Below are positions 2,486-32,556 of a stretch of 57,017 bases of DNA, piece after piece. A model generated the notes under the pieces. It did not search any database. It was given only the letters and a program-made list of their open reading frames with translations, and had not been told where the DNA came from. The position numbers were made by a program, and so were the translations under genes. Where the stretch lies: contig JAMCVZ010000015.1 of assembly GCA_023476565.1 (NCBI GenBank), forward strand, positions 1-57,017. Reading direction: 5' to 3'. Numbering within the stretch: the stretch's first letter is position 1; each line of letters begins with the position of its first letter. This stretch comes from Nitrospirota bacterium. Its GTDB lineage: Bacteria; Nitrospirota; Thermodesulfovibrionia; Thermodesulfovibrionales; Dissulfurispiraceae.

Positions 2486-3070
2486 TCAATACTTCATCAG
2501 AGTGTTGAGAGCTTCCCTTACTACCTTCAGCACGCTCTCGCTCATAGTATCCGACCTGGCGCCGAAATGTCTTGCCATGAAACTGGCGCCGCCGGTTGTC
2601 CTTGTGGCGGACCAGATAATGCTGCCCGAGCTTGCGTCAGCCATCATCAGCGTAATGCTTATTTCAGGAGCGGTAGTATTTCCTATCCTGGTCTCTCCGA
2701 ATTTTTCCACAGAGCCGAGGATAAATGCCTGTACCTTGAGAGTGCTTCCTAAAGATTTAATCTGATCCGCGGTTAAAGATGAAATCGATCTGGTCCCCAG
2801 CTTGTCTACCGCGGCGACCACTTCTCCCGGAACCACCACATCGACAAGGCCGGTGGCCAGCAGTTCGCTGATAACCATCTGTCTCACAATATCACCGGCA
2901 AACCTCTCATTCGTCAGATTGTCCAGAGGCAGCACCGCCACTCTTTTAATGAAGCTGAAATCCATATCCTGACGGACATGGAACGTGGAGACGCCGCCGC
3001 TGCGGCACCCCGAACCCGCAAATACAATAAGTATTGCCCCTAACAGAAAGGAATTCCTTAACAGTTTCAT
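2486..3070 (-). CDS. GNA1162/CsgG-like lipoprotein
   Basis: The start chosen gives a compact lipoprotein signal, MKLLRNSFLLGAILIVF followed by AGSGC, and has AGAGG about nine bases upstream. The frame stays open to a start at 3163, preceded by a G-rich tract, which would add an unlikely 31-residue basic extension. The mature part follows the GNA1162 pattern: IKRVAVLPLDNLTN, a helical stretch ending VVVPGEVVAAV, LKVQAFILGSVEKFGE, then ISITLMMADASSGSIIWS and a C-terminal helix. It is clearly paralogous to the next gene upstream: both share TTGGASFMARHFGA / TSGGANFWTRHFGA. Such lipoproteins are periplasm-facing outer-membrane proteins, and this one probably works with the neighbouring relatives. 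Confidence 0.8.
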   Translation of the reverse strand: MKLLRNSFLLGAILIVFAGSGCRSGGVSTFHVRQDMDFSFIKRVAVLPLDNLTNERFAGDIVRQMVISELLATGLVDVVVPGEVVAAVDKLGTRSISSLTADQIKSLGSTLKVQAFILGSVEKFGETRIGNTTAPEISITLMMADASSGSIIWSATRTTGGASFMARHFGARSDTMSESVLKVVREALNTLMKY

Positions 3071-3204
3071 CCGTAAATACCTCTTATCTGTCATTATATA
3101 GCCGTTATACATTTTCGCCTGCGACAACCGTGACCGTCTTATCTGCCGGATGTTCTCCTTCATTATGCCCCCCCGCCGCAGACAGCAACCCGGATTAGAA
3201 TAAC

Positions 3205-3825
3205 TTAGAATAACGTATCAATGGCCCCTTTTACCACTTTCCTGGCGGTCTCGCTCAACGACGCTCCCTCTGCCCCAAAATGTCTGGTCCAGAAATTGGC
3301 GCCGCCCGATGTGCGCCATACGGACCATAAGATAGTGCCCGAGCCCGCATCGAGCAATACGAGATGGATGGATACCTCGGGATAGGTAGCGGAGATCCCG
3401 GTGCTCATCCCGAAGGACTCCACGGATCCCGTCAATACCGCGTCCACCCCCAGCATTTTCTGCATGCCCTGCAGCTCCTTGACCGACAGGGAGCTGCGGG
3501 ATTGCACTTTTAACTCGTTAAGAGCTCTTGTGATCTCTCCGGGTTCAATGACATCAACCCCTCTTGACAGCATCTCGGTAATTACCGCTTTCCTGATCTT
3601 TTCCCCCGCGTACCCGTCGGTTGAATAGTTCTCTAAAGGCAGTACTGCAATCCGCTTGAGAGAGCTGACGCTGAATTCCGGACGGGTATAGTATTTCATC
3701 GCTCCGGTGCATCCGGAGATGAGGGGTGTCAGGAGCAAAAAAGCTACAAACGTTGAAACGAGCGATAACAGGACATCTCTTGTGCTTTTCGCCTTACTAA
3801 TCATAAGCTTTATTATTATAAACAC
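3205..3825 (-). CDS. GNA1162/CsgG-like lipoprotein
   Basis: A lipoprotein with lipobox LISGC, followed by the GNA1162-like domain: LKRIAVLPLENYSTD, VIEPGEITRALNEL, LGVDAVLTGSVESFG and VSIHLVLLDAGSGTILWS, ending in a helix. It aligns along its whole length with the gene at 2486-3070, so the two are tandem duplicates. The listed start is a GTG 12 bases after the stop of the beta-barrel gene. An ATG at 3804 (MISKAKSTRD...) would also give a good lipoprotein signal. Immediate linkage to the barrel suggests a complex at the outer membrane, perhaps analogous to a CsgG-type ring or an accessory lipoprotein, which is inference. Confidence 0.8.
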   Translation of the reverse strand: MFIIIKLMISKAKSTRDVLLSLVSTFVAFLLLTPLISGCTGAMKYYTRPEFSVSSLKRIAVLPLENYSTDGYAGEKIRKAVITEMLSRGVDVIEPGEITRALNELKVQSRSSLSVKELQGMQKMLGVDAVLTGSVESFGMSTGISATYPEVSIHLVLLDAGSGTILWSVWRTSGGANFWTRHFGAEGASLSETARKVVKGAIDTLF

Positions 3826-3837
3826 TTCTTTTCAAAA

Positions 3838-6264
3838 TTACCAGAACCTGCAATTCAAATTTATACCTATGTTATAGCTTTTTGTATTTTTAACCGCCTC
3901 AGTTTGTGTATAGCTGTATGCCAGTTGCAGGTCTAAAAATTTTGTGATATACCATATCGCATAATTATTGAACGTATCGCTCACCGTCGGTCCCGGTTCA
4001 GAACGGGTATGCTGGTAATTTGTGTTCAGTTTGATCACCGGGAAAGGCAGCCAGTCGAGCAGAACGCCTTCGGATGTGGTAGTATTGCCGCCCGATAACA
4101 ATATCCTGAAGGTGCCTGAGAGATTGACAAGCCTGCTGGGACGATACGAAATGATCGTTCCCCCCTCTTCAGTCAAGGTGGTCACGCCTCCTGACAACGT
4201 CGAGTTGACGCCGTACGTAAGGGTAGTAAACAGCTTCGGAGTAAGGGTGGCATCGATCGATCCCCTGAGATATCGTGAATTAGAGGGTTGAGCATTGACC
4301 AGATAAGATTGTGTCTGCGTATATCCTATATCGGTGATCATATTGACGTTCCTGTATAATTTCGATCCTATATTCAACAGCACCGAGTCGATCGTGGACT
4401 GCTTTGCGCCGAAGCTGTAATTGTCATTCTTGATGAATGTCAGGCTTGTATTGAGTGTCGGCAGCGGAGCGGAGCTGAAGGCCAGCGAATAGATATTCGA
4501 CGCGGTATCCAGTTCCTTCCTGTTGTCATAGGCCTCATTTCTCTGTATGCGCGCGGTGGTGGTGAGCAGTCTGTGCGCCATCCATGTGGTTGTGGCGCCG
4601 TAGGTTTTCGTGATATTGCTTCTCATGCCCGTCCCCGCCCCTTTGGAGGATTTCTTAATAATATCCCCGGCGATATTGCTGATGGAGTCCCAGACCGAGG
4701 CGGGATTCGTATCCGCCCTGTTCAGGAGGTAATTGAGCGCGATGTTCAGCGTCTGCGCAGGCCTCAGGTTCACATTAAAATTCAATCCCTGGTTAAACAA
4801 AGTCGTGGTATCGACGGTCTTTCCCGTTGAGGGGATGATATCTATTCCGAAGGCCTCTATTTCCGTTACAAATACGTCGTTCACATTGGCCGTATCCTGA
4901 TTCACCACCTTAAAAAATGAGGCGTTCTGGGGGGAGAACTTGATATCATAACGGTAAATTCTGTTGAACGGATCGAATACGGACAGGCTCACGCTTGAAA
5001 CAGCGGCCGGTGTCCACTCATTCACTACCGGGGAATTGGTGTTGCTCGTATAAACCCGCCATTTGCTGGGATCATTGCCGACAACGGTATCCAGCGTAAC
5101 ATTGTTCACGGATGTTACATAAATGGAGAGCGTATCTACGCCCTTATCGGAAGAGATAAGCCGGATGCCTATATTATGGTACTTATTCGCGTCAGGGGCA
5201 GCCTCGTTCTGGCCGATATTGATCTTTGGTATCGGTGCAGCATAACCGGCTGTCGGGTTGGGATTGTTGAATGCGTCGGTCAGCGCGCTCTCGGATGAGA
5301 GCTGGTTGATGTTTTTCGGATTGCCCGTTTCGTGGGGGAGGACGCTGCCCGTTTCCGTTGCAGCGCCTTTTGCATAGAGGCCCGACAAAGGAGTCCGCCT
5401 TACCGATACACTGCCGGTTTTTATCGAAAACTGCTCGTTCTTATTCCTTACATAGTTCCCCTGATAGACCGCTGAAATGAAAACCAGGCCGTCCTTGATC
5501 GATCTCGAGTAGCCGACATTGTACAGTCCGGTGAAATTGTCGGATGTCGATTTGAATACAGTGCTGATCGGGGTTTTATTCTCATTGCGCGTGTAGTAAA
5601 GGTTATACGAAAGGTCCAGATTTTTGTAAGGGAATTTATATGCTGAATTCCCTGAATATCTGTTGCTGGTATTGTCCGTCTGCCTCGGAGAAAGATAGTC
5701 GGAATCCACCTGCCTGTCGTATTGAAGCATGAGGGAGGGGAATTCATAGGGAGTAACGTTCAGCCTGGAATAATAGAACTCGGAGGTCTTCCTGCTTTCA
5801 TCCCTGATATGCGTTGTTGACCACTGTTCCAGGCGGCGGTAACCGGTGTCTATGGAGTACATCGGGTTCCGGAGAAAAAAGTCTATTGCCGGTTCCGCGG
5901 CTCTCTGGTAGGCGGTTGTTTTCTTACCCTCTGCATCGGTCGAATGCAGGTTGGTCAGGCTTGTCCTTAAATAAATCTGATAGGAAAGGACAGGCGTGAT
6001 AAATTTATCGAGGCGCAGATAATAGTTCTCGTTGAGATTGTTCTGGGCGGAGATTTTTTTGCCGTCCTCGTACTGTTTTGCGGTAGTGCGGTTCAAGTTC
6101 GCCCATCCGCTGAGCCCTTCGGCTAAAACAGGGGACCAATAAAAAAGCGGCAGGCTGAAAGCGAGGAGGGCTGCGCAAACGGCAAAAAATACAGGACGCA
6201 AAGCATAGATATTTTCTCCCTCCCCTCCATGCTTTATATCCCCGGTTCTATGCCTTTCGCCCAT
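3838..6264 (-). CDS. Large outer-membrane beta-barrel protein (porin-like)
   Basis: An 808-residue protein. A long N-terminal region is followed by a hydrophobic signal segment (VFFAVCAALLAFSLPLF...) ending near AEG. The mature chain is rich in alternating polar/aromatic strands such as NENYYLRLDKFITPVLSYQIYL and LDLSYNLYYTRNE. It ends ...NLNCRFW, with the terminal aromatic residue expected for a BAM-inserted barrel. The middle (about residues 270-520) contains a less barrel-like insert (DTLSIYVTSVNNVTLD, RYDIKFSPQNASFF), perhaps a jelly-roll or Ig-like domain. No TonB box or plug is seen. It lies between the propeller lipoprotein and the CsgG-like lipoproteins, so it is the best candidate for the pore or anchor of the cluster. 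The exact family is not recognised. Confidence 0.8.
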   Translation of the reverse strand: MGERHRTGDIKHGGEGENIYALRPVFFAVCAALLAFSLPLFYWSPVLAEGLSGWANLNRTTAKQYEDGKKISAQNNLNENYYLRLDKFITPVLSYQIYLRTSLTNLHSTDAEGKKTTAYQRAAEPAIDFFLRNPMYSIDTGYRRLEQWSTTHIRDESRKTSEFYYSRLNVTPYEFPSLMLQYDRQVDSDYLSPRQTDNTSNRYSGNSAYKFPYKNLDLSYNLYYTRNENKTPISTVFKSTSDNFTGLYNVGYSRSIKDGLVFISAVYQGNYVRNKNEQFSIKTGSVSVRRTPLSGLYAKGAATETGSVLPHETGNPKNINQLSSESALTDAFNNPNPTAGYAAPIPKINIGQNEAAPDANKYHNIGIRLISSDKGVDTLSIYVTSVNNVTLDTVVGNDPSKWRVYTSNTNSPVVNEWTPAAVSSVSLSVFDPFNRIYRYDIKFSPQNASFFKVVNQDTANVNDVFVTEIEAFGIDIIPSTGKTVDTTTLFNQGLNFNVNLRPAQTLNIALNYLLNRADTNPASVWDSISNIAGDIIKKSSKGAGTGMRSNITKTYGATTTWMAHRLLTTTARIQRNEAYDNRKELDTASNIYSLAFSSAPLPTLNTSLTFIKNDNYSFGAKQSTIDSVLLNIGSKLYRNVNMITDIGYTQTQSYLVNAQPSNSRYLRGSIDATLTPKLFTTLTYGVNSTLSGGVTTLTEEGGTIISYRPSRLVNLSGTFRILLSGGNTTTSEGVLLDWLPFPVIKLNTNYQHTRSEPGPTVSDTFNNYAIWYITKFLDLQLAYSYTQTEAVKNTKSYNIGINLNCRFW

Positions 6265-6305: not shown

Positions 6306-7905
6306 CTATCGCGGGAACATTGTAATCCCGTAAGGCTTTCTCCCTACGGGGATTATCTGTTCTACATTTCTTGTAGTCTTGTCTATAACCGATACGTCGT
6401 TCGACCCCCTGTTTACTACATAAAGCTTCCGGGATTCAGGGTCCATCAACAACGCTCTCGGGGCTTTTTCTACCGCGATAGCGGCAATGATCGGGGTCAA
6501 TACCGCCCTTATCGTATCAGACCCCTCCGGGAAGGGCCTGATGACCACTACGTCACCGGGGATCTCCCTCAGCAGATACACCCTGTCAAAAGACGGGTCG
6601 GCAACAACTCCTATACCGGAGATCCCGATGTTGTTAATAGTGCTGATGACATTGCTCCTGCTCCCCCTGACAAATTTCAGGATATCCATGACCGAGAGCT
6701 TGTCGGTATCGTAGTTCGTGATATAAACTTTCCCCCTCGGGTAGTCTACGCCGAGCGATATCGGGCTCCATTCGACCCCTAAATTGCTCACATCCACGCT
6801 TTTTAGCGTCGAAAGGTCCATCCTCACAACAGAAATATCCTTGGAGTTTTTGTTTACCACATACACATTGAAAAATTTTTCACGGTAGCTTCTTAAGGTA
6901 TTTACATCATCCGTGCTGAGGGATCTCGCATTCAAAAGGGCATCCACCGGCGGGTCCGCCGCAATAGCCACAGGGCCGCTCCCGACATTTACCTTTTCCA
7001 GTTCCTGATAGGTCGTCCCGTCTATAACGGATATGTTATTGGAACTGTAATTCGTTACGAAAACAAGCTCTTTGTCCGGGTTTATTCTGGCTACCGCAAC
7101 ACCTTCCGCGCCCCACCCGAACCTGATAGGGACCTCGGTATCCACTTTATTCGTAGTCGGGTTAATCACGGAGAGGCTGTGAGAGCCCGAATTCGCCACA
7201 TACACTCTCAATGCATCCCTCCTGACGCCTACTGCAACCCCTCTCGGCCTCTTTCCTACCAGCACCGTGGCAACCACTTCGCCTGTCTGCCTGTTGATCA
7301 CCGAAACGTTGTTCGATTCCTCATTCGTCACATATACAAGCAGGGAGCTCAATTCCGCTGTCGGTCCTTTCACGGTAAATACCGGCCTGAAGAGATATCC
7401 CTCCACAATAGATGCATCCGCATTCCAGCCCACAAACAATGATGTGTTCACATTCCTGTTCATTGTGAATTTTACATCGAGCTCTATTCCTTCGGGAGGA
7501 AGCGCCAGGCGTGCTATCCTGTCTTTTCTCTTTATTGACGCCTCTTTTATCACAAACCGGATTTTCTTGTATGTGCCTTCGGGCAGGTCCCTCTCCCCCA
7601 GGAGTATCTGGCGACCCGCCATGGCAATGGAGTTGACGCTCCGGGGGGGGGGCTGTCAGCACCTCCCTGTAGGTACCGTCCTCAGCCATAACGCTGACTG
7701 CCTGCAGATCAAAGGTAATATCCAGGGCGGCTTTCTCAGGCCCGTTCATAAAAAGGCTGATCTGGCCCTGGTTCGCGTCATGTGACAGGGGTTCGTCCTG
7801 CTCTCTCACCGTTGCACATGCCGCCAGGAGCAGCAAAGAGCAAAAAACAAAAGTCAGAAAAAAAAGAGAACTGTGCCTGCAGAACATATTCCGTTTGCCG
7901 TGCAT
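6306..7905 (-). pseudogene. DUF4382 + YVTN beta-propeller lipoprotein, interrupted by a frameshift at a C10 tract
   Basis: Two overlapping minus-strand frames encode one protein. The first starts near 7905 (MHGKRNMFCRHS, with GGAG upstream) and has a lipobox LLLLAAC. It then enters a DUF4382 domain (GQISLFMNGPEKAALDITFD...REVLTAPPP) and loses frame. The second continues the same domain (SVNSIAMAGRQILLGERD LPEGTYKKIRFVIKEA) and then about eight YVTN-type propeller repeats (VYVTNEESNNVSVINRQTGE, VYVANSGSHSLSVINP and so on). The break lies at ten consecutive C on the coding strand (7643-7652). C9 would restore a continuous reading frame. It may be a sequencing or assembly error, a true pseudogene, or a phase-variable gene. 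The expected intact product is a surface or periplasmic adhesin-like propeller lipoprotein. Confidence 0.8.
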
Positions 7906-8025: not shown

Positions 8026-9021
8026 TTACATCGATTTAAACACCTGTATCCTGTCATTGAAGGTGTCTGAAACAAACAGCCTTCCCTTTGAATCAATAGT
8101 TATATCCGTCGGATGCTGGAACCACCCTTCCGTCCATCCCATGCCGCCGAATTCGGAGATGTATTTTCCGTCCATGTCATATATGTTTACGGTATGCCGC
8201 ATATAATCGACTACATACATCTTGCCGACATTATAATCCACGGCAATCCCCTTCGGCCGGCTCAGTTTGCCTGCATTCCCTCCCTTTTCACCGAATTTGA
8301 AAAGAAACTTTCTATTCTCGTCGTAAACGTAAATGCGGCTTTCCTCTTCGCTCAGGAGGTATATCTTTCCCTTCCTGTCTATCATTACATTGTTCAACCT
8401 TGCCTTTTTATCTCCCTCTTCGGGCGACATGATATCAAGAAATTTACCGTTTTTGTCCAGCACTATCACCCCGGGAAAATGGAGCCCTGCGACATAGATA
8501 AGGCCGTTTTTATCTATCGCTATGCGATACGGCATGAAGGAGTCCGCCCCCTCAAAACCTTCAAAATATATATTTTGTTCCCAGTTGAGACACGCGTTAA
8601 AAACGGAAATCCGGTTCTTCGGGTCACTTTTTGACAATGCCTGGGCAACGTAAACGTCCCCCTTTTCATCCACAGCCAACCCCTGGGGACTTTCAATGCC
8701 GTTTCTTTTCGAAAGGGTATAAAGAGGAAAGAGATCGGATGAATAGATAATGATCCTCACCATGCTGTCGATCACGTAGATCTCATTCATCACAGGTTCA
8801 GCCAGCACAAAGGACGGATAGGCGAGCTTTCCCCCATCCTCATCGGAATTGATACTGTCCAGATAATTTGATTCCCCTTCTGATTGGGCGCTCAGTTGCC
8901 GGGGAACAAAAAGCTGCAGGCAGAGGGTAAGCAGCAGGAAGGACAGGAGCAAATGCTTCCCATATGTGCTATTCCCCCCGTATAGACCCAAAACACTTCC
9001 TGAAAAAGGATTATTTTTCAC
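8026..9021 (-). CDS. NHL-repeat six-bladed beta-propeller, secreted
   Basis: An N-terminal hydrophobic signal (HLLLSFLLLTLCLQLFV...LSAQ) precedes repeated NHL blades: PQGLAVDEKGDVYVAQ, PYRIAIDKNGLIYVAG, LNNVMIDRKGKIYLLS, PKGIAVDYNVGKMYVVD and PTDITIDSKGRLFVSD. This gives a propeller of about 300 residues. The listed start is GTG with no Shine-Dalgarno. A TTG at 8991, preceded by AGGAAG, fits better with the promoter at 9029-9058. To my recollection an NHL-repeat gene also sits beside omcS/omcT in Geobacter sulfurreducens, which supports a link to the cytochrome next door. NHL propellers bind proteins, so a chaperone or capping role toward the cytochromes is possible but inferred. Confidence 0.85.
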   Translation of the reverse strand: MKNNPFSGSVLGLYGGNSTYGKHLLLSFLLLTLCLQLFVPRQLSAQSEGESNYLDSINSDEDGGKLAYPSFVLAEPVMNEIYVIDSMVRIIIYSSDLFPLYTLSKRNGIESPQGLAVDEKGDVYVAQALSKSDPKNRISVFNACLNWEQNIYFEGFEGADSFMPYRIAIDKNGLIYVAGLHFPGVIVLDKNGKFLDIMSPEEGDKKARLNNVMIDRKGKIYLLSEEESRIYVYDENRKFLFKFGEKGGNAGKLSRPKGIAVDYNVGKMYVVDYMRHTVNIYDMDGKYISEFGGMGWTEGWFQHPTDITIDSKGRLFVSDTFNDRIQVFKSM

Positions 9022-9220: not shown

Positions 9221-10381
9221 TCAATTCTTCTGTGTGTGGCAGGTGAAGCAGCCACCGCTTCCGCCTCCACCGGCAACCATCTGCGTATAATCCCATCTGA
9301 GCATAGATGGATATTTTGAAGCATGCGACATATGGCAGGAGAGGCACATGACCACATCCGAGCCTGGATTCACTACACCGCTCGGAGCGCTATAAACCGT
9401 CTGTCTGGCGACAGGAGCTTCTACGCTGTACGAGGTATATGCGGAGTACTCACCGCCGATCGGAATCACCACATCGGTCGGGTGTCTTATAAAAGGAGTT
9501 GAAGAAGGTGAAGAGGGGGGACTCGTAGGCCCTATTCCTGAAGTAAGGCCATAAGTACCCGCACCTGACCCGCTCAAGCTATGAAAATTCCCGTGGCATG
9601 TAGCGCAGAACCCGCTCATTGTGTTTTGCGGCGCTATTACAGGTTGTCCCGTCTGTCCACTCGCGTGACACGCATTGGTACAAGTGCTGTAGTAAAGCAG
9701 GGGAGTATTTGCGCCGAAATACTCATTGTGGTTTGCTGAATCGGTGTTTTGCCAGTTGCTGCTCTCATATCCTTTCACACCCATCAGATATCTGTAACTG
9801 TTATATACGTCGGACGCCGTGTCTTTTACTCCGGCTACGCTCTTGTGATGCGCTCCTTTCAGCGTCTGCAATCCCGATATATCGGTCCCTGCAAGCCTCT
9901 TTCCGTGACACCCGCGCGAGCCTGCGCATGTCAGCAATTTGGTGCTGTTATCAATTATCACATTATGAAATGAGCCTTTAAACGCTCCCGGAATACCGGT
10001 GTTAAGGAGGGGATCCTGGATGCCAAGCTCCTTCACATTATGTCCTCTGTTATTGCCATATGTCTGAATATATTTGAAATTACCTCCCGCAAGATCCGAT
10101 GAATCAGAATGGAACACCTGGGGGAAGTTGCTGCCGCCCACATTTACAATCTTAGTGGGTCCCATGCCGTGGCATCCCATACAGTCGCCGCGCGTGAGCG
10201 ATTCATTCGGCCCCTGGCCCGAACCACCGTAACCGGACATAACAGTCCCGTTCTGGCTGTTATGCATGGTATGGCAGTTCACACAAAGACCGGTTACTTT
10301 TGCATCGGCAAGACCATAAATGAAAAATAGCGAAAAAAATAAAAGCAGTACGATGAAGGGCCTTTTCAAAATAGTAAGCAT
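9221..10381 (-). CDS. OmcS/OmcE-like multiheme c-type cytochrome, paralogue A
   Basis: A 386-residue secreted cytochrome with signal peptide (FIVLLLFFSLFFIYGLADA). Heme motifs in order are CVNCH 33-37, CMGCH 67-71, CAGSRGCH 152-159 (CX5CH), CTNACH 234-239 (CX3CH), CATCH 259-263, CLSCH 346-350 and CFTCH 378-382, so up to seven hemes. Shared landmarks with the other three paralogues are CHTMHNS, LAGGNFKY, RGHNV, SYRYLMGVKG, NHNEY, CHGNFH, IRHP and CLSCHMSHAS. The same landmarks occur at the ends and middle of Geobacter OmcS, as remembered. The family stacks hemes into extracellular filaments for long-range electron transfer. A GG-N10-GC promoter lies 43 bases upstream and GAGGTGAT precedes the ATG. 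Histidines in CHTMH, HHKS and NHNEY are probable distal ligands. Filament formation is inference. Confidence 0.9.
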   Translation of the reverse strand: MLTILKRPFIVLLLFFSLFFIYGLADAKVTGLCVNCHTMHNSQNGTVMSGYGGSGQGPNESLTRGDCMGCHGMGPTKIVNVGGSNFPQVFHSDSSDLAGGNFKYIQTYGNNRGHNVKELGIQDPLLNTGIPGAFKGSFHNVIIDNSTKLLTCAGSRGCHGKRLAGTDISGLQTLKGAHHKSVAGVKDTASDVYNSYRYLMGVKGYESSNWQNTDSANHNEYFGANTPLLYYSTCTNACHASGQTGQPVIAPQNTMSGFCATCHGNFHSLSGSGAGTYGLTSGIGPTSPPSSPSSTPFIRHPTDVVIPIGGEYSAYTSYSVEAPVARQTVYSAPSGVVNPGSDVVMCLSCHMSHASKYPSMLRWDYTQMVAGGGGSGGCFTCHTQKN

Positions 10382-10423
10382 AATTCGAATATCACCTCGT
10401 TTTCCAGCAATTTAAATAACGTA

Positions 10424-10439
10424 AGCAAATATCATGCCT
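10424..10439 (-). promoter_or_regulatory. Sigma-54 promoter for cytA
   Basis: On the minus strand the sequence is AGGCATGATATTTGCT, with GG and GC separated by exactly ten bases (consensus TGGCACG-N4-TTGCA). The predicted start site near 10413 gives a leader of about 32 bases before the cytA ATG. Confidence 0.65.
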
Positions 10440-10560
10440 TGCTTTCGTAAAGGGGCAATGGAATTACTTAAAAGAATTTACAATGATTACCGCGGGTTGC
10501 AGTTAATAGTTGAAGTTAAGATTGAAATTCGAGATCGAATAGCCTCTATCTGGTCCGTTT

Positions 10561-10597
10561 TCACTGAGGGATTTCACTCAAAGTGTGATATCACTCA
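10561..10597. promoter_or_regulatory. Possible activator-binding repeats upstream of the cytA sigma-54 promoter
   Basis: Three near-identical heptamers lie on the plus strand: TCACTGA (10561), TCACTCA (10574) and TCACTCA (10591). The last overlaps the perfect palindrome GTGATATCAC (10585-10594). The group is about 130-165 bases upstream of the sigma-54 promoter, the usual range for NtrC-type enhancer sites. No equivalent was found upstream of cytB. Confidence 0.35.
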
Positions 10598-10631
10598 CAA
10601 AAAAGCGCAAAAGCACTATCTCTTTGTGTCT

Positions 10632-10717
10632 CGGGGACTGTCCCTATTTACCAACAGTAGGTGGTTTACCACGGACGAAGCAGCAGCGGAGTCGTAGACA
10701 TAGGGACTGTCCCCTCG
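10632..10717. repeat. REP/MITE-like palindromic pair
   Basis: The arm CGGGGACTGTCCCTAT (10632-10647) and an inverted copy ATAGGGACTGTCCCC (10700-10714) enclose about 50 bases. Each arm is itself a GGGAC-T-GTCCC palindrome, so the element can fold into paired hairpins. It ends six bases from the stop codon of the GT-C gene. The rest of the 341-base gap 10382-10722 holds the cytA promoter and repeats listed separately. Confidence 0.6.
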
Positions 10718-10722
10718 GGGTG

Positions 10723-11889
10723 CTAGCTCCGGGCTTGTTTTACCTTCTCTCCGGACCGCAGTCCCGATATCTTGCTTATCAGCACCGCGATTATCGCTGC
10801 AAACCCTATCGACGGCAGGTACAGGCGGTGCTCAAATATCATATCGTAGATAACGAGAAAGCTCGATGTTACCGACAAGGTCACGAAGAACCATATGATT
10901 CCGAACGATATGAGCCTCTCTTTGCGGAACAGTTTGACGGCTAAAGCGATTATTGCTGCGAGGAGGAAAAAATAGAGCACTGTGGGGAGGTCTATCTGCC
11001 TTGTGATCGGCCAGTCGTAATCGAGATTCAGGTTTATCGGCAGAAAGAGCAGTTTGATATAATAGGGGATAACATGGAGCTGGGTGAGAAAATACTGGAA
11101 AGATGTAATGGCGTCTCCCTGCGGCATTTTCACTCCTTTTGCAGAATCAAAAGATACGAACTCATTTATCCCATGGAAATTGATATAAAGTACCACGGCA
11201 AGCGTCGCCCACATCGCAAGGTGGGCTTTATAATGCCTTTTGACCGTTTTCAGTTCCCCGTCGGAGATAAAGTAGTAGTCGTAAATTACCAGCATCAGAG
11301 GGAGTGTGGCCGTTTCCTGCTTCGTTCCCATTCCGAGGCACGAGGCCACAAAAGCGCCGGCGAGAAAAGGCAGCGGGCGCGAGTATCTGTAGGCCCCGAT
11401 AAAAAGAAGAAGGGAGAGCAGATAGAAAGTCGTCGCCATGACAGAGGACCGGCTCACGATATAAGTAACGGCCTGAGTCTGCAAAGGGTGTGCAATGAAC
11501 AGCAGGCCGGCATAAAGAGGCACCCTGAAATCTGTTTGACCGTCCCTTTTCCGCCCGTTTTTTGCCGGGTGGAGCGTCCAGAGGAGAATAAAGTACAGCA
11601 AGATGCCGTTGGCTATGTGCAGTATAAGATTTACCAGATGGTAACCGAACACATCGAGCTTGCCGAAGTAATAATTAAGGGCAAACGTCAGGTCAAGCAC
11701 AGGTCTCGGAGAAGCTGACAATATCCCTCTCACATCGAACCTGTGTATGGCGTAATTCTCAATTATGGAATGGACATCATCAAAGTGGAACGTGGTCTGG
11801 AAACTGTTCGAATAGATAAGAGCGGCTACAACGGCTATCAGGCAGAGGTTGAGCACATTTTTATGCGCATCGGAAAGTTTGGTCGGCAT
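10723..11889 (-). CDS. GT-C membrane glycosyltransferase, TMTC/DUF1736-like N-terminal half
   Basis: A 388-residue polytopic membrane protein with about nine hydrophobic segments. After the first TM helix the loop has FHFDDVHSIIENY, the acidic pair used by GT-C enzymes. Next come RPVLDLTFALNYYFG, GYHLVNLILHIANGILLYF and, near the end, FEHRLYLPSIGFAAIIAVL. This is the membrane half of TMTC-type O-mannosyltransferase-like proteins, which in one chain normally continue into a last TM helix and TPR repeats. Here it stops after that signature and the TPR halves are separate, divergent genes (11994-14148). It uses lipid-linked sugar on the periplasmic face. The target may be the neighbouring secreted cytochromes, which is inference. 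Confidence 0.8.
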   Translation of the reverse strand: MPTKLSDAHKNVLNLCLIAVVAALIYSNSFQTTFHFDDVHSIIENYAIHRFDVRGILSASPRPVLDLTFALNYYFGKLDVFGYHLVNLILHIANGILLYFILLWTLHPAKNGRKRDGQTDFRVPLYAGLLFIAHPLQTQAVTYIVSRSSVMATTFYLLSLLLFIGAYRYSRPLPFLAGAFVASCLGMGTKQETATLPLMLVIYDYYFISDGELKTVKRHYKAHLAMWATLAVVLYINFHGINEFVSFDSAKGVKMPQGDAITSFQYFLTQLHVIPYYIKLLFLPINLNLDYDWPITRQIDLPTVLYFFLLAAIIALAVKLFRKERLISFGIIWFFVTLSVTSSFLVIYDMIFEHRLYLPSIGFAAIIAVLISKISGLRSGEKVKQARS

Positions 11890-11895
11890 TTTTTA

Positions 11896-11924
11896 ATTTA
11901 ATGCAGAGCGCGGAAGGTTGTCAA
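11896..11924 (-). promoter_or_regulatory. Possible promoter of the GT-C gene
   Basis: TTGACA (11924-11919), 17 bases, TTAAAT (11901-11896) on the minus strand. The -10 box ends seven bases before the ATG, and no Shine-Dalgarno is seen. If real, the transcript would be leaderless. Confidence 0.35.
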
Positions 11925-11993
11925 CGTATGCCCGCTGCCGCTCTTTCCCCGTCTCCTTGAATTTACAAAATTTCCTGTGCTATTTTAAAACCG

Positions 11994-12476
11994 ATGGACC
12001 CGACAGATACAGACGGCTTGTTGCCCGGGAAAATCTCCCTTTACCGGATTGAATTAATTGTGCTCGTCAGCCTTGTGCTCATATACGGACAGGGCACGTT
12101 TCAGAGGAATTATATCTGGAAAAACAATGTAAGCCTCTGGTCCGATGTGGTGAAGAAATCCCCTTTCAAAGCGAGGGCCTACGAGTATCTCGGGCTCGCA
12201 TACCATCAAAACGGAGACATGGACAGCGCGATTCAACAGTACATAAAGGGCCTCTCGCTGGCCCCCTGCTCTGCGGATCTTCACAACAATATCGGCATCT
12301 CTTATTTTGAAAAAGGGATGACCGACCTGGCTATACGGCATTTTAAAACCGCCGTGGAATTAAATCCCGTTCATGCCGATGCCCATTATAATCTGGGCGT
12401 CGCATACGGTAATAAAGGGCTGTTCGAGCTCGCCAATGAGGAGATGCGCAAGGGCATGGCCCTCGGCAGGCGTTGA
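11994..12476 (+). CDS. Membrane-anchored TPR protein (TMTC C-terminal module 1)
   Basis: A 160-residue protein: one N-terminal TM helix (LYRIELIVLVSLVLIYGQGTF), then RNYIWKNNVSLWSDVVKKSP, then three TPR units (ARAYEYLGLAYHQNGDM..., ADLHNNIGISYFEKGM..., ADAHYNLGVAYGNKGL...). The sequence between helix and TPRs (RNxxWxxxxSLWxDVxxKSPxKAR) is the junction found in one-piece TMTC-like glycosyltransferases, so this is a detached C-terminal module. It is first of three tandem paralogues and is divergent from the GT-C gene. No good Shine-Dalgarno precedes the ATG. Probable role: periplasmic substrate-recognition arm of the glycosyltransferase (inference). Confidence 0.8.
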   Translation: MDPTDTDGLLPGKISLYRIELIVLVSLVLIYGQGTFQRNYIWKNNVSLWSDVVKKSPFKARAYEYLGLAYHQNGDMDSAIQQYIKGLSLAPCSADLHNNIGISYFEKGMTDLAIRHFKTAVELNPVHADAHYNLGVAYGNKGLFELANEEMRKGMALGRR

Positions 12477-12493
12477 TTGCCCGGATATTCAAT

Positions 12494-13435
12494 ATGTCTG
12501 AAACTACTTTACGCCGGATAGAACTGGTTGTACTTGCCACCGTAGTGCTCGTCTGCGGATGGGCCGCGTTTCAGCGGAATCATGTATGGACCGATGAAAT
12601 CAGCATCTGGTCCGACGCGGTCATGAAGTCACCGCAAAAAGCGAGACCCCACCATAATCTCGGTTGGGCCTACTATTCCATGAAACACTACAACGCCGCC
12701 CTGTCCGAATATCAGCAGGCAATAAAGATAAACCCCCGCTCCGTAAGAATATACGTTGACCTCGGAAGGGCTTATGAAGCAAAAGGCCGGTATGATCTTG
12801 CCGAAGGAATATACAGAAAGGGATTGGAACTGGACCCCGCTGATTACAAGGCGCATATCTTTCTCGGTGAGCTCTATCATAAGAAAAGGTACACGGATCT
12901 TGCGGTAACGGAGCTGAAATCCGCTCTGAAAATAAACCCTGGAGCTGTTTCCGCCTACAGCATTCTCGGGAGCATATACGTCGAGAGCGGAATGCCCGAC
13001 GCAGCCATTGAGGAATATAAAAAGGCCCTGCAAATCACTCCTGACGATGCAAAAATTTACTATAATCTCGGTATCGCCTGCGATATAAAAGGGCTTCCCG
13101 AAGAGGCAGTCCTTAATTACCGGAGGGCATTACATATCAAGCCCGATTATCCTGAGGCGCTCTCCAACCTCGGTATCGTTTATGGAAGGGCGGGAAGGCT
13201 CGAAGAGGCGATATCCCTTTTCAATAAGGCCCTGGACCTGGAACCTGAAAGCATCACAACGTTGCTTGACCTCGGATTTGCCTATGAGGAACTGGCAAGA
13301 AGCCCCCGGCGGAAGGAGGAGGCCGGAGAGCTTGCAGCCAGGGCATTTGAGGCGTACAGGAAAGCCCTCACGCTCGATCCCGGTAACGTGACGGCACGGC
13401 AGAGGACGGCGGTGCTGACAAAGGGCGGTTCATAG
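12494..13435 (+). CDS. Membrane-anchored TPR protein (TMTC C-terminal module 2)
   Basis: A 313-residue paralogue of the preceding gene: TM helix (RIELVVLATVVLVCGWAAF), junction RNHVWTDEISIWSDAVMKSP, then about seven TPRs ending in a degenerate copy with basic insert ARSPRRKEEAGEL. A TTG start at 12473 would overlap the upstream gene by four bases. The ATG at 12494 puts the basic TLRRIE right before the helix, as in module 1, and is preferred. The longer solenoid suggests a different partner or target from modules 1 and 3. Tandem duplication is evident from the shared N-terminal 60 residues. Confidence 0.8.
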   Translation: MSETTLRRIELVVLATVVLVCGWAAFQRNHVWTDEISIWSDAVMKSPQKARPHHNLGWAYYSMKHYNAALSEYQQAIKINPRSVRIYVDLGRAYEAKGRYDLAEGIYRKGLELDPADYKAHIFLGELYHKKRYTDLAVTELKSALKINPGAVSAYSILGSIYVESGMPDAAIEEYKKALQITPDDAKIYYNLGIACDIKGLPEEAVLNYRRALHIKPDYPEALSNLGIVYGRAGRLEEAISLFNKALDLEPESITTLLDLGFAYEELARSPRRKEEAGELAARAFEAYRKALTLDPGNVTARQRTAVLTKGGS

Positions 13436-13464
13436 AGCGCCTCTGATATAATATCTCTAATATA

Positions 13465-14148
13465 ATGAAAAGATTCGAGCTTATCTTTATTATCCTTGTA
13501 GTGCTTCTCTACAGCTTGGCCGCCTTTACCCGTAATCTCGTCTGGAAGGACGATCTCACCCTCTGGTCGGATGTTATCAGGAAATCTCCCGGCAAAGCGA
13601 GGGGCTATAATAATATAGGCGTTTTTTATGCCGAAAAAAAAATGCCCGGGAAGGCAATTCCCTTTATAAAAGAGGCCCTGAGATTAAAACCCGACTTTGT
13701 CTTTGCTTATATCGCCCTTGGAAACGCCTATATGAAATCAGGCTATGCAGACCCGGCAATAGAAAGTTACAGGAAAGCCCTGTCCATCGCACCCGGCTTT
13801 GCCGAAATATATACCAATCTCGGGAGCGCATACGTCCAAAAAGGCATGATCGACCAGGCAATCGCAGCATACGAAAAAAGCATCTCCATAAACCCCGGCT
13901 ATGTGCCTGCTCACGTGAATCTTGCCTCTGCATACGGCTCAAAGGGCCTGACACAGAACGCCATAGACGGATTCAAGAGGGCGTTGGCGCTGGAACCGGA
14001 CAACCCGGATATCCTGTATAATCTGGGGATTTCTTACGAGGAGAGCGGCATGGTCCGCGAGGCCGTTACGGCTTTTCAGGAGACACTGAAGCTGCGGCCC
14101 GACGATACTGACGCCCGTGAAAGACTGAAAGAGCTCAGAGGGAATTGA
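13465..14148 (+). CDS. Membrane-anchored TPR protein (TMTC C-terminal module 3)
   Basis: A 227-residue third paralogue: short cytoplasmic MKRF, TM helix (ELIFIILVVLLYSLAAF), TRNLVWKDDLTLWSDVIRKSP, then about five TPRs (ARGYNNIGVFYAEKKM..., VFAYIALGNAYMKSGY..., AEIYTNLGSAYVQKGM..., VPAHVNLASAYGSKGL..., PDILYNLGISYEESGM...). It starts 29 bases after module 2. No Shine-Dalgarno is visible, but TATAAT lies 13 bases before the ATG (13447-13452), so it could have its own promoter. The function is inferred as for module 1. Confidence 0.8.
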   Translation: MKRFELIFIILVVLLYSLAAFTRNLVWKDDLTLWSDVIRKSPGKARGYNNIGVFYAEKKMPGKAIPFIKEALRLKPDFVFAYIALGNAYMKSGYADPAIESYRKALSIAPGFAEIYTNLGSAYVQKGMIDQAIAAYEKSISINPGYVPAHVNLASAYGSKGLTQNAIDGFKRALALEPDNPDILYNLGISYEESGMVREAVTAFQETLKLRPDDTDARERLKELRGN

Positions 14149-14229
14149 CCGCACGCCTCAATGGATTCCTGCTGGAGTTTATCCTCACGAAAGCGGGGAC
14201 AGGAATGACTTAGAGATGGCGCTTCAATT

Positions 14230-14277
14230 ATTTATTTGCGTCCGTGCTTATTGCGCAGCAAATAAATCGACAGATAC
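14230..14277. repeat. Inverted repeat, 10-base arms
   Basis: ATTTATTTGC (14230-14239) and GCAAATAAAT (14268-14277) enclose 28 bases in the gap between the TPR genes and the cytB terminator. The flanking 14160-14210 resembles a degenerate REP-type unit (GGATTCCTG...CAGGAATGAC). No gene is seen here. Confidence 0.45.
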
Positions 14278-14305
14278 AGCCATTGGCATAATGAGGATAG
14301 TATAT

Positions 14306-14339
14306 AAAAAAAGTACCGTGCCCGAAGGCACGGTACTTT
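14306..14339 (-). terminator. Rho-independent terminator of cytB
   Basis: A 13-base-pair stem (14310-14322 with 14327-14339) closes a TTCG loop on the minus strand and is followed by a T run (14310-14306). It lies 25 bases beyond the cytB stop. The A/T flanks on both sides mean it could also stop the TPR transcripts coming the other way. Confidence 0.9.
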
Positions 14340-14363
14340 ATCACGTTATTGCTTTTTTACGGA

Positions 14364-15374
14364 TTATCTCTGGTTGACGTGGCAGTTGAGGCAGCCTGTG
14401 CTTCCGCCGCCGCCTGCAATCTGAGTGCTGTAAGCGAATCTCAGGATATCGTCGTTCGCACTGCCATGTGCGCGATGGCAGGATACACAGACCACGTTGG
14501 CGCCTGAACCGGAGGTAGCGGTATAAGCGCTGGTAGGGGTAACAGTAGCAAAGTCAGCATTCGCAAAGCCGAACGGCGTATTTACATAATCCGCAGCAAT
14601 GCTTGCAGTTCCACCAGTCAGACCTCCGAAGCCCATCTCAACCGGGTGTCTGATCCATGCGCTGCCGTTCCAAATCGCTGTGTCGCCGGTGCCGGTTCCT
14701 GTTCCATGGAAGGCGCCATGACACTGCGCGCAGAGCCTGCTGATACCGTTGTTGGTATCTGCGGAATACACGTTATGGTTGGTTGCGGATACGGTCGCTT
14801 CCCAGTCAGAAGACTTCAAGCCTGTAATAGCGGTTCCTGCAGATGTCTGCAAGTATCTGTAACCTGCGGTCTTGCTGTGATGGAAGCCCTTGATTCCTGC
14901 ATCGCTTGTGGTTTTTCCTGCAGTATGATCGCCGTGGCATCCGGTTGTGCCCGCACAGTTCAACTGGTTAGGGTTAAGGGTAATTAAAGATCCACTATTA
15001 CCCGGGGTGCCGTTTGCACCATAGGTTGTGTCACCGCCGGCAAAGACATCGGTTACATCATGCCTCTTAGCCATCGTAGATGCAGTAGCGGTGTTGAATG
15101 TTCCGCCTGCGGTTATCGTTGCAGTTCCAAAGATATTCGGCGCACCTCCCACGGTTGAGCCTGATGCTCCATGACAGCCGAGACATGACGACAGGGTCAG
15201 ATGACCATTCGGTCCGCCTGAAGCTCCTGCCGGAGTAGTGCCGTTCTGGCTGTAATGCATGGTGTGGCAGTTTGAACATACGCCGCTTACCGTCGCATTT
15301 GCCGCCGGCACAAAACCGTACACCAGAAGGCCTACTACAACTAAGAACAACATTGTTTTTAATACTCTTTTCAT
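14364..15374 (-). CDS. OmcS/OmcE-like hexaheme c-type cytochrome, paralogue B
   Basis: A 336-residue secreted cytochrome. The ATG at 15374 has a strong GGAGG six bases upstream and gives a clean signal peptide (MKRVLKTMLFLVVVGLL...AANA). The frame is open further upstream but that part is leader. Heme motifs are CSNCH 33-37, CLGCH 64-68, CAGTTGCH 140-147 (CX5CH), CAQCH 205-209, CVSCH 296-300 and CLNCH 328-332, six in all, the number known for OmcS. Shared landmarks are CHTMHYS, FHHSKTAGYRYL, NHNVY, CHGAFHG, IRHPVE and CHRAHGS. The body is rich in Gly, Thr and Ser, typical of filament-forming cytochromes and of possible O-glycosylation. It is a single-gene transcript with its own sigma-54 promoter and terminator, and has the best translation signals of the four, so it may be the main subunit. 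Confidence 0.92.
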   Translation of the reverse strand: MKRVLKTMLFLVVVGLLVYGFVPAANATVSGVCSNCHTMHYSQNGTTPAGASGGPNGHLTLSSCLGCHGASGSTVGGAPNIFGTATITAGGTFNTATASTMAKRHDVTDVFAGGDTTYGANGTPGNSGSLITLNPNQLNCAGTTGCHGDHTAGKTTSDAGIKGFHHSKTAGYRYLQTSAGTAITGLKSSDWEATVSATNHNVYSADTNNGISRLCAQCHGAFHGTGTGTGDTAIWNGSAWIRHPVEMGFGGLTGGTASIAADYVNTPFGFANADFATVTPTSAYTATSGSGANVVCVSCHRAHGSANDDILRFAYSTQIAGGGGSTGCLNCHVNQR

Positions 15375-15448
15375 TTTGTCCTCCTTCTCCCTTCTTTTTA
15401 TTTCTGAGTCGTCATCTTTATATGATTTCGCTCTTTGCTTTTTAATAA

Positions 15449-15464
15449 TGCAATTGCCGTACCA
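15449..15464 (-). promoter_or_regulatory. Sigma-54 promoter for cytB
   Basis: On the minus strand TGGTACGGCAATTGCA matches TGGCACG-N4-TTGCA with GG-N10-GC spacing. The predicted start near 15437 gives a leader of about 63 bases with GGAGG before the cytB ATG. The rest of the 383-base gap (15375-15757) holds a CTGTGTG...CACACAG hairpin near 15664-15684 and no recognised gene or riboswitch. Confidence 0.75.
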
Positions 15465-15757
15465 GACTTGCAAAAAAATTTAAAAAAAAGCAAAAAAACA
15501 AATTTTCCAGGCCACAATCTGAGGCCACTGTTAAAAAGTCTTTAAAATTAATGACTATGCAGATCATTAGCTCTTACCAGAATGAAAATTTAAAGCAACT
15601 TTCGCCTAACCGGGGGACACATATACGTGCTTCTGATTTCCGGACCCTGTTTCTTCTCTCTTACCTGTGTGTATTTTCACACAGTTATAGCAAAATTTTA
15701 CGCAACCGCCCCCCTGCTGCTGATCTTTGCCTGAGTTTTGCACATTGTCCATTGAAA

Positions 15758-16783
15758 TCAATTGCTTTTTTGGGAATGGCAGATAATGCAGCCGGTTTTT
15801 GTGCCGCCCGTAGTAGATATCGTCGAGTAGTCCCATTTGAGCATGCTCTGGTACGGGCTGGCATGAGCCCTGTGGCATGAGAGGCACATGACAATACTAT
15901 TCATATCCACTGTCGTTTCCGTTCCCGTCGGATTCGTGAATGCGACGGGAACATCAAGGCTGTAACTCGTATAATTCTGATATTCGGATCCTGCATACCC
16001 GACCTGCACGGTGCTGAAAGAGATATCAACAGGATGCCTGTGCCATACCCTGGAAGAGCTTACATTGGAGTTTCCGCCGAGATTTGAGTGAGGGTGAAAC
16101 TGTCCATGGCACTGGCCGCAGAAATAGCTTATAGTGTCCATTGCGCTGTAACTGCTGTCGCCCCTATACCCGTTATGATTAGAAGGAGTAGCCTGGTACT
16201 CCCAGGTTGGATGCTCTCTTCCTTTAACCCCGTAAAGGAAGCGATAGCTGGTACCTACTGTCAGGCCGTCTATTATGCTGTCGTCGGCATGGTGTGCTCC
16301 GGATATTGCCGTCGACGGGTCCGCTACGGTCCTGTCGCCATGGCATCCCCAGGTGCCCGCACAGGTAAGCTGATTTGTCTGCGACCAGGTCATTGGCCCG
16401 ATACCGCCCGGAATAATAACGCTTCCGATAAAACCCGGGGGTGTATCTTTAGGAGGGAACTCCCTCTGTGAAATGCCGGCGACATTGTGGCCCTTGCTGT
16501 AGTCAGGATTATAGCCGTCCGCTACATAATAGAAGTTTCCACCGGCAAGATCTCCGCCCGACATATGGTGGAGGACTTGAGGGATCCCTCCTCCGTTAGG
16601 GACAGGTATTATATTCTGGGTTCCGCTGGGACTCTGACCATGACAGCCCACACAATCCGCGAGGTTGCGGGAGTGGCAGAATGAACAAGTCCCTGTAGTC
16701 GTTGCGTGCACCGGCTCCTGCATCGCCCAAAGCATAGCCACACATAGAAATACAGTAGAACATAAAATCTTTCTCATTGCCAT
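15758..16783 (-). CDS. OmcS/OmcE-like hexaheme c-type cytochrome, paralogue C
   Basis: A 341-residue secreted cytochrome with signal peptide (ILCSTVFLCVAMLWAMQEPVHA). Motifs are CSFCH 33-37, CVGCH 44-48, CAGTWGCH 141-148 (CX5CH), CGQCH 222-226, CLSCH 300-304 and CIICH 332-336. Motifs 1 and 2 are only eleven residues apart, far closer than in A, B and D. The usual HTMHxS after motif 1 is missing (CHSRNLADCVGCH), so heme 1 or 2 must find a different distal ligand. Other landmarks are LAGGNFYYV, KGHNV, AHHADD, SYRFLYGVKG, NHNGY, CHGQFHP and RHPVD. It is 40 bases downstream of cytD and probably co-transcribed. No convincing Shine-Dalgarno is seen. Confidence 0.9.
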   Translation of the reverse strand: MAMRKILCSTVFLCVAMLWAMQEPVHATTTGTCSFCHSRNLADCVGCHGQSPSGTQNIIPVPNGGGIPQVLHHMSGGDLAGGNFYYVADGYNPDYSKGHNVAGISQREFPPKDTPPGFIGSVIIPGGIGPMTWSQTNQLTCAGTWGCHGDRTVADPSTAISGAHHADDSIIDGLTVGTSYRFLYGVKGREHPTWEYQATPSNHNGYRGDSSYSAMDTISYFCGQCHGQFHPHSNLGGNSNVSSSRVWHRHPVDISFSTVQVGYAGSEYQNYTSYSLDVPVAFTNPTGTETTVDMNSIVMCLSCHRAHASPYQSMLKWDYSTISTTGGTKTGCIICHSQKSN

Positions 16784-16823
16784 ATCGGATTGTTATTGTT
16801 ATTCATAAATTTCCAAAAGCTTT

Positions 16824-17825
16824 TTATTTTTTCGAGTGGCATATAAAACACCCGCTCTTGCCCCTCCTTCCCGCGATCATCGTCTCGAAATTCCACCTCA
16901 GTGAGGAGTTATACGGACTTCCGTGCGCCATATGGCATGTCAGGCAGACAACTACATCCCTGCCGGGCTTTACTTCCTTGCCCGGCAGATTGGGAACATC
17001 AGGCCGTGCTACAGGGGCCTCGGGACTATAAGCCGTATAGCTTTTGTATTCGCCCCTATCGGGCAGTACAACTCCTACCGGGTGCCGGAACCATACCTTG
17101 CTTTTATCTTTGCCGTGGAACTCGCCGTGGCAGCTCTCGCACAGTCTGATGATCGACGGTGAGTATTCATTATGCTCCGTCGGAGAGCTGTTCTGCCCCC
17201 AATCCGGGTCCTCCAGCCCGACCACACCTTTCGATATGCTTGTAATTTTAAGAAAGCGGTAGCTTTTGGCAATGGTGGTCCCATCCACAGGAGTATCTAT
17301 TGCATGATGGGAACCCATAATTGCAGCAAAGGGATCCTCTATGTTTCTATCGCCATGGCAGCCGTTTGAGCCTGCACATGCCAGGGGTTTATGCTCATTA
17401 TACCCGATAGATGAGGGATCCAGCGTCCTTTCATATCCCGGGGGAAGACCGCCGAATTTCATATCTGAGTAAGAAATATTGTTCACATTATGGCCTTTCC
17501 TCTCCCCCATGTGGGCGACATAATAAAAATTGCCTCCCGCCAGGGGCTTATTGGGCTCTTGCGTGTTATATACAATAGGGGTTCTGAAGCTGCCGAGGAT
17601 CTTTATGGTATCTTCCGCAGTGTTTGTGTGGCAATTTACGCACATGGCATCTTTGGTGATTTTATCCTTGCTCTTGTCCTTGCCCTTCTCTTTTCCCATC
17701 ATTCCAGGGTAAAGGACATGGCAAGTTTCGCAATCTTTCAAGGCTACCGAGGCATTGCCGGGTTCCGGAAACTGCAGAATACAGGCTGCCAGAAGCACTG
17801 CTATAAAAGCTATTATACTCCTCAT
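16824..17825 (-). CDS. OmcS/OmcE-like hexaheme c-type cytochrome, paralogue D
   Basis: The preferred start is the ATG at 17825 (MRSIIAFIAVLLAACILQF), giving 333 residues. A start at 17852 adds nine residues without a better ribosome site. Motifs are CETCH 32-36, CVNCH 62-66, CAGSNGCH 140-147 (CX5CH), CESCH 209-213, CLTCH 294-298 and CFICH 326-330. LLAAC within the signal resembles a lipobox, so this member could be lipid-anchored rather than free. A lysine-rich loop (KEKGKDKSKDKITKD) separates hemes 1 and 2. Shared landmarks are LAGGNFYYV, KGHNV, SHHAID, SYRFL, EHNEY, CHGEFHG, FRHPVG and CHMAHGS. A tethered paralogue could be the base or electron entry point of a filament (inference). Confidence 0.9.
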   Translation of the reverse strand: MRSIIAFIAVLLAACILQFPEPGNASVALKDCETCHVLYPGMMGKEKGKDKSKDKITKDAMCVNCHTNTAEDTIKILGSFRTPIVYNTQEPNKPLAGGNFYYVAHMGERKGHNVNNISYSDMKFGGLPPGYERTLDPSSIGYNEHKPLACAGSNGCHGDRNIEDPFAAIMGSHHAIDTPVDGTTIAKSYRFLKITSISKGVVGLEDPDWGQNSSPTEHNEYSPSIIRLCESCHGEFHGKDKSKVWFRHPVGVVLPDRGEYKSYTAYSPEAPVARPDVPNLPGKEVKPGRDVVVCLTCHMAHGSPYNSSLRWNFETMIAGRRGKSGCFICHSKK

Positions 17826-17917
17826 AATTATTACCGTCCGATATATAAGCATAAATAATGCCAGAAAATGCTAAGAATTAATTTTTATGGCTTAAGCAAA
17901 TACACACGGGGGGGATT

Positions 17918-19000: not shown

Positions 19001-19167
19001 ACAGTTTCAATAGCTGCATCTATTTCTGCAATTCAGCCGGCCGGGAATATCTACGGCATTGCCGGCGGCTGACGGGGATTGCGAACCCCTATTATTTTCT
19101 ATTTCGATTGTTTTAAAATTTTTTGCAGCCTGTTTTGCCAAAGCGGTAATTTCGCATCAGATAGGGA

Positions 19168-20553: not shown

Positions 20554-20554
20554 T

Positions 20555-21568: not shown

Positions 21569-21672
21569 CTGTCCGCCTTGGAAACGTAAACATAAGCAGC
21601 ATTTCCACTCCAGGGCATATGAGCAGTATCTAAGAGATTATTCTCCGGGAATTTGACACCTTGGGGGCTCAC
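21565..21672 (-). CDS. Small 35-residue ORF, function unknown
   Basis: Not recognised. A GTG start overlaps the methyltransferase stop (GTGA), and its TGA overlaps the TTG start of the next glycosyltransferase (TTGA), so both junctions are 4-base overlaps of the kind seen between real co-translated genes. The product begins VSPQGVKFPENNLLDTA and ends VYVSKADS. It has no TM segment and no Cys. It could be a small genuine gene, a translational-coupling leader, or the degraded tail of a former larger gene. Confidence 0.4.
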   Translation of the reverse strand: MSPQGVKFPENNLLDTAHMPWSGNAAYVYVSKADS

Positions 21673-22541: not shown

Positions 22542-22621
22542 TTTTTATCTGCGGTATGAAAAACTATCATTACGTTGTATTACAACAACTAAAGGTATAA
22601 GGTTTTTTATCACAAACGTTA

Positions 22622-24708: not shown

Positions 24709-24798
24709 CTTCTTTCATAATAAAAAATTATTGTAACATTTCTTACCGCTGCATGAATATGGATATCCCCGGCACGATCGAATGTGATACGGTTGCCC

Positions 24799-30852: not shown

Positions 30853-30881
30853 CCTTGATGCCGGAGAGCATAGTAAACGGG

Positions 30882-32548: not shown

Positions 32549-32556
32549 ACATTATT

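Follow-up and report, generated by a model that had tools for sequence, protein, structure and literature searches.

Four OmcS-family cytochromes in a Nitrospirota contig

The stretch of 57,017 nucleotides analysed here, referred to as the window, is one contig (JAMCVZ010000015.1) of the 2.67 Mb draft genome of a Nitrospirota bacterium of the Thermodesulfovibrionia (GCA_023476565.1, labelled G000). It carries genes for four multiheme cytochromes, A to D, which belong to the family of OmcS, the nanowire cytochrome of Geobacter sulfurreducens, by sequence and, in predicted models of A and D, by fold (Table 1). All four open reading frames lie on the minus strand where the original prediction, made from the DNA letters, had placed them; position 17852 is a possible alternative to 17825 as the start of D. 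By eye, each protein has a hydrophobic export signal at its N-terminus. The predicted counts of seven heme motifs in A and six in B, C and D hold when non-canonical sites are included, whereas canonical CxxCH motifs number five in every protein. All four share an invariant CX5CH site, CAGxxGCHG, and A has an additional CX3CH site, CTNACH.

Most of the predicted landmarks were likewise found. CxxCH...FH, RHP, C[LV][ST]CHxxH[AG]S and a C-terminal CxxCH occur in all four proteins, CHTMHxS is confined to A and B, and the interval between motifs 1 and 2 is shorter by about 25 residues in C. LAGGNF is present in A, C and D, but B has the variant TAGGTF. The description of the array as tandem applies to D, C and B, which are contiguous, but not to A, which is preceded by 3.9 kb containing genes for a membrane protein and three tetratricopeptide repeat (TPR) proteins. 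D is also distinguished by its charge, with 24% K, R, D or E compared with 8-12% in A-C. The lipid anchor that had been suggested for D is weak: the LAAC at residues 12-15 is missing from four D orthologues, and an ordinary signal peptide is therefore likelier than a lipoprotein signal.

Similarity among A-D and to OmcS is far above chance in profile searches. A profile of A-D against the PDB gave OmcS (6EF8/6NEF) as the top match with E 1.9e-12, followed by a nitrite reductase at 0.008, and a profile of 36 family members reached OmcS at E 1e-21, with the runner-up at 0.004. OmcS was reached by profiles only, as phmmer with A alone against the PDB returned no match to E 1. Pfam and NCBIfam matched a short doubled-CXXCH motif only and did not name OmcS itself. 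Template-free AlphaFold2 (AF2) modelling of the mature proteins, from alignments of 72 rows for A and 54 rows for D, gave a predicted local distance difference test score of 82.5 and 85.9 and a predicted template modelling score of 0.86 and 0.85, respectively. In both models confidence was lowest over the 30-40 residues at the N-terminus, the region of hemes 1 and 2. Superposition onto 6EF8 with VIA-align gave Z 15.4 and a root mean square deviation of 3.9 A over 251 residues for A, and Z 16.8 and 3.8 A over 260 residues for D. For both models 6EF8 was the sole chain with a Z of 2 or more, and Foldseek matched the A model to 6EF8 at E 4e-4. We take the AF2 training cut-off (2018) to be earlier than the release of 6EF8.

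The likeness to OmcS proposed in the original prediction is thus borne out by profile, predicted fold, heme-site order and a gene order shared with true OmcS loci, as well as by CHTMH beside heme 1 (A and B only) and the GHN, RHP and CxSCHxxH motifs. By contrast, the window proteins are shorter than OmcS (about 305-358 compared with 407 residues), A has its extra heme site, and several diverged types stand in one array. OmcS proper, the Geobacter-type clade, has six sites that are all CxxCH and a common set of six ligand histidines outside them, and A-D have neither. Because A-D combine five CxxCH sites with CX5CH, A having seven sites in all, we assign them to a diverged subfamily that stands next to the OmcS clade (100/100). 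The proposed likeness to OmcE did not stand. OmcE was absent from the PDB profile matches to E 10, and the six or seven sites of A-D contrast with those of OmcE, a tetraheme protein unrelated to OmcS (PMC9473688, PMC12203936). The filaments of OmcE and of OmcZ, with four and eight hemes, offer an analogy in polymeric multiheme cytochrome function only, neither having a sequence match with A-D; OmcZ lacks an inter-subunit ligand and has a 14-residue loop in its odd heme site (PMC9473688).

In a 51-row IQ-TREE phylogeny the OmcS clade and the B, C and D groups were each recovered at 100/100, and A grouped with other A-like proteins of the genus (95/94). G001, of the same genus, G002, of the same family, G040, of the same order, and BMS3Bbin07 each have an orthologue of D. 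The order D then C recurs in G000, G001, G002 and G040, which represent three genera. The third position holds B in the window and in G002; in G001 it holds another type that is not a B orthologue. B, C and D are separate clades common to several genera, not recent copies, and the array is thus one of old, distinct types. Members of the family occur in Nitrospirota, in Thermodesulfobacteriota (including Desulfobulbaceae, Thermosulfurimonas and Pelovirga) and in metagenome-assembled genomes (MAGs) labelled Deferribacteres. An unclassified bacterial MAG (Zod_Metabat.896; L105:8706-17628) has six clustered family cytochromes together with a cytochrome of 20 or more hemes.

The CX5CH site and the candidate ligand histidines

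Where the OmcS clade has CxSCHDPH at site 3, the window family has CX5CH, which is present in 97 of the 112 family members from named genomes. Its two cysteines and its histidine are invariant across 72 aligned members, most of these rows having been chosen for possession of the site. The best argument that CX5CH binds heme is that in one paralogue group a canonical C[QR]GCH occupies the aligned position, so that the two forms interchange. Heme loading is thus suggested by the alignment, and it is improbable that the site is empty, leaving each protein one heme short and the chain broken at position 3, even if a non-canonical site unnamed in the literature searched would agree with such a loss. 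That no paper searched names CX5CH is weak evidence of novelty, given that subscription papers were not covered. The window genome encodes a further A-like cytochrome in which the site reads CAESGGCH (L042, G000:C20:31536-32609) and two fragments of the canonical C[QR]GCH group (L043, G000:C60). It also encodes four CcsA/CcmF-family (PF01578) proteins (G000:C57, C2, C15 and C46; L183-L186). These may represent more than one cytochrome c maturation system, which could be related to the non-canonical heme sites.

Six histidines outside CxxCH are conserved in 35 OmcS-clade sequences, namely H2, H16, H110, H147, H257 and H335 in mature numbering, which equals the number of distal ligands expected for six bis-histidine hemes. 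We take H16 to be the residue that links OmcS subunits, as the original structure paper reportedly has it; a number for this residue was not found in the literature searched. According to PMC6584659 and PMC7096707, OmcS hemes follow sequence order and one heme 5 ligand is supplied by the neighbouring subunit. Heme 6 of one subunit adjoins heme 1 of the next, which places the donor near heme 1 and would make it H2 or H16.

The window family retains H110, H257 and H335, and an H16 equivalent is kept in 124 of 133 members, A and B included. H2, just ahead of heme 1, is missing, and H147 has been replaced or has become the histidine of CX5CH. In addition, four histidines new to the family are invariant or nearly so (H178, H179, H218 and H267 in A numbering). 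In D, all five orthologues are free of histidine in the interval from heme motif 1 to heme motif 2. In C, the H16 equivalent is absent from two species of the window genus and kept in two other genera, and its loss is thus no constant feature of C. In the sister species G001 the orthologue of C (L044:6151-7288), which also lacks the heme-1 histidine (CHTQDLSNCIGCH), is split by an apparent frameshift after heme motif 2, either a sequencing error or the mark of a pseudogene. Within the OmcS clade, L168 and L169 were not counted as paralogues without H16, as each has a histidine two residues further on.

Gene neighbourhood

Downstream of A, two propeller genes, a putative barrel, lipoprotein genes and a peptidyl-prolyl isomerase (PPIase) gene run to the contig end (Table 1).

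Table 1. Cytochrome genes and neighbouring features of the window
Feature	Coordinates	Strand	Remarks
Cytochrome A, OmcS-family	9221..10381	minus	Seven heme motifs (5 CxxCH, 1 CX5CH, 1 CX3CH); H40 (equivalent of OmcS H16) present; AF2 model compared with 6EF8
Cytochrome B, OmcS-family	14364..15374	minus	Six heme motifs including CX5CH; H40 present; B clade 100/100
Cytochrome C, OmcS-family	15758..16783	minus	Six heme motifs including CX5CH; interval between heme motifs 1 and 2 without His (CHSRNLADCVGCH); C clade 100/100
Cytochrome D, OmcS-family	16824..17825	minus	Six heme motifs including CX5CH; CHVLY replaces CHTMH; D clade 100/100; AF2 model compared with 6EF8
NHL-repeat six-bladed beta-propeller	8026..9021	minus	Conserved beside family cytochromes and true OmcS
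YVTN-type beta-propeller	6306..7622	minus	Homologue immediately follows true OmcS genes; probable GSU2500 equivalent
Putative outer-membrane beta-barrel	3838..6264	minus	No Pfam match; barrel proposed from sequence character; homologue in OmcS loci
GNA1162-like lipoprotein	3205..3825	minus	
LpoB/GNA1162-like lipoprotein	2486..3163	minus	
GNA1162/CsgG-like lipoprotein	1424..2476	minus	
SurA/PpiC-type PPIase lipoprotein	3..1433	minus	Interrupted by contig end
Intrinsic-terminator-like hairpin	14310..14339	minus	25 bases after B, at end of D-C-B unit; pattern match only
NtrC-type sigma-54 response regulator	26846..28216	minus	Adjoins D on upstream side in sister species
Partner histidine kinase	28256..29806	minus	Homologues near several true OmcS loci
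Multiheme cytochrome, about 9 motifs	29803..30852	minus	Syntenic in sister species

Downstream of true OmcS genes, Desulfuromonadales genomes encode homologues of the YVTN protein, the barrel, a lipoprotein, a GNA1162-like protein and the PPIase and, where the stretch reaches further, a 26-heme and a 16-heme cytochrome and an NHL propeller. The propellers, barrel, lipoproteins and PPIase have the same order in the window as at OmcS loci. In G001 the PPIase gene is followed by 26-heme and 16-heme genes and then by another family cytochrome, and the relatives G036, G058 and G040 likewise continue past the PPIase into 26-heme and 16-heme genes. These two genes were seen in relatives of the window only: the window contig stops inside the PPIase gene, and no full-length 26-heme gene was found in its draft assembly. 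A barrel or lipoprotein gene lay within the flank examined in 30 of 80 related loci.

According to PMC12977616, GSU2495 is a 26-heme protein, and the block GSU2500-2493, which accompanies GSU2501/OmcT, is linked to OmcS maturation and secretion. The block at OmcS loci fits GSU2500-GSU2493, since it comprises eight genes of which the 26-heme gene is the sixth; a match of individual genes to GSU numbers would follow from this order. PMC5539420 and PMC10553843 describe, respectively, the 26-heme/16-heme/PPIase/propeller core as an operon of syntrophic sulfate reducers and an Oet cassette that carries OmcS-like genes. Nitrospirota are not named in the passages of these three papers that were consulted. 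OmcX was considered as the same protein and rejected, because it has 11-12 heme motifs (PMC5539420).

Given that fold, sequence and gene context all indicate OmcS, we regard it as highly improbable that A-D are soluble periplasmic electron carriers with a function unrelated to filaments, even if signal peptides cannot separate periplasm from surface and multiheme c-type motifs are common in the window genome.

In G001 the NtrC-type regulator pair immediately precedes D, and such a pair also occurs close to several OmcS loci. In the window the pair is parted from D by a 9 kb polysaccharide locus (17918-26669) with glycosyltransferases and a Wzm/Wzt-type polysaccharide ABC exporter. Matches to sigma-54 -24/-12 promoters were no commoner than in shuffled sequence, although an NtrC-type regulator is linked, and sigma-70 promoter matches were at chance level. 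Between A and B, the region 10723-14148 encodes the membrane protein on the minus strand and the three TPR proteins on the plus strand, the latter sharing a similar N-terminal transmembrane stretch. About 6-10 other loci have homologues of these genes close to family cytochromes. The membrane protein has no Pfam match; the proteins of this region resemble pieces of TMTC-like O-mannosyltransferases and might glycosylate the filaments. Further upstream, the region 29803-33903 encodes two large multiheme cytochromes, of about 9 and about 15 motifs, on either side of a TlpA-like TPR protein and another TPR protein, with homologues together in G002 and partly in G001.

Proposed polymerisation, subunit roles and significance

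We consider it probable that A-D are extracellular multiheme cytochromes of the OmcS family, encoded in a cassette with the gene order of the Geobacter OmcS nanowire / Oet cluster, and that A and B polymerise. Each protein would be exported, loaded with hemes in sequence order and folded around a linear heme chain as in OmcS. In A and B the histidine after the heme-1 CxxCH would coordinate heme 5 of the neighbouring subunit, following the OmcS model, and because they keep this histidine A and B would be the likeliest shaft subunits. D, and C in the window genus, could accept a neighbour but would not donate a ligand; as they lack the donor histidine, they probably stand at the heme-1 end of the chain or are non-polymerising partners. 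Folding and export may be the task of the proteins encoded downstream (propellers, barrel, lipoproteins and PPIase). Electrons would be relayed by hopping from heme to heme, connecting the outer membrane with an acceptor, a donor or a partner cell outside.

Several points weigh against polymerisation. The choice of H16 as donor rests in part on a deduction from PMC6584659 and PMC7096707; if the donor were H2, the family would be without one. Of the six histidines that are invariant in OmcS outside CxxCH, H2 and H147 are not retained in that form, and the family has four others of its own, so that ligation differs from that of OmcS. No filament of A-D has been observed. According to PMC12977616, OmcS is the only one of four Geobacter sulfurreducens paralogues known to polymerise into a wire. 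The main rival is therefore that all or most of A-D are outer-surface OmcS homologues that do not polymerise and relay electrons as monomers or small complexes, as OmcT, OmcJ or GSU2501 may. The absence of a candidate donor histidine from D and C and the unusual charge of D agree with this, but the cassette matches a block linked to nanowire maturation and secretion, and a heme-1 histidine so widely kept in the family is hard to explain without a role. We regard this rival as possible and do not favour it.

The original prediction had also suggested a division of labour among base, shaft and tip. The distinct types, together with the lack of a heme-1 histidine in D and in C of the window genus, give this idea a testable basis, but the lipid anchor of D adds little to it. 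A special case of the polymerising explanation is a hetero-filament with fixed roles, in which D forms a base or cap at the heme-1 end, C lies beside D and A and B make up the shaft. The separate clades of B, C and D across genera, the recurrent order of D then C, and the composition of D, in both its histidine-free interval and its charge, are consistent with such roles. However, C of two other genera keeps its histidine, the lipobox of D is not conserved and the order past D-C varies, and we consider fixed roles doubtful. A more specific form, a polar hetero-polymeric nanowire in which A and B donate the histidine, D with C ends the heme-1 side at the cell and every subunit carries a heme at CX5CH, appears unlikely. 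Polymerisation of A and B is the reading that we prefer.

The existence of such proteins outside Geobacter, as proposed in the original prediction, is not new: OmcS homologues in other bacteria, and the idea that they form wires, have been published (PMC10954620, PMC7911101, PMC10553843). CwcA of Thermincola (PMC7911101) and the Apc2a / OmcS-like proteins of syntrophic sulfate reducers (PMC10553843) are similarly hexaheme OmcS-type or proposed wire cytochromes. Within the papers searched we did not find the CX5CH subfamily, the four-type Nitrospirota array or the absence of the candidate linking histidine from one conserved type.

In conclusion, one conserved OmcS-type subunit has lost precisely the residue proposed to join subunits, and a dedicated end subunit thus becomes testable by a single substitution, just as the split of ligands among A-D makes the idea of base, shaft and tip testable. 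A heme-loaded CX5CH would widen the known spacings of c-type heme attachment. Given the range of the family, wire-type electron export may be more widespread in subsurface and vent bacteria than work on Geobacter suggests.

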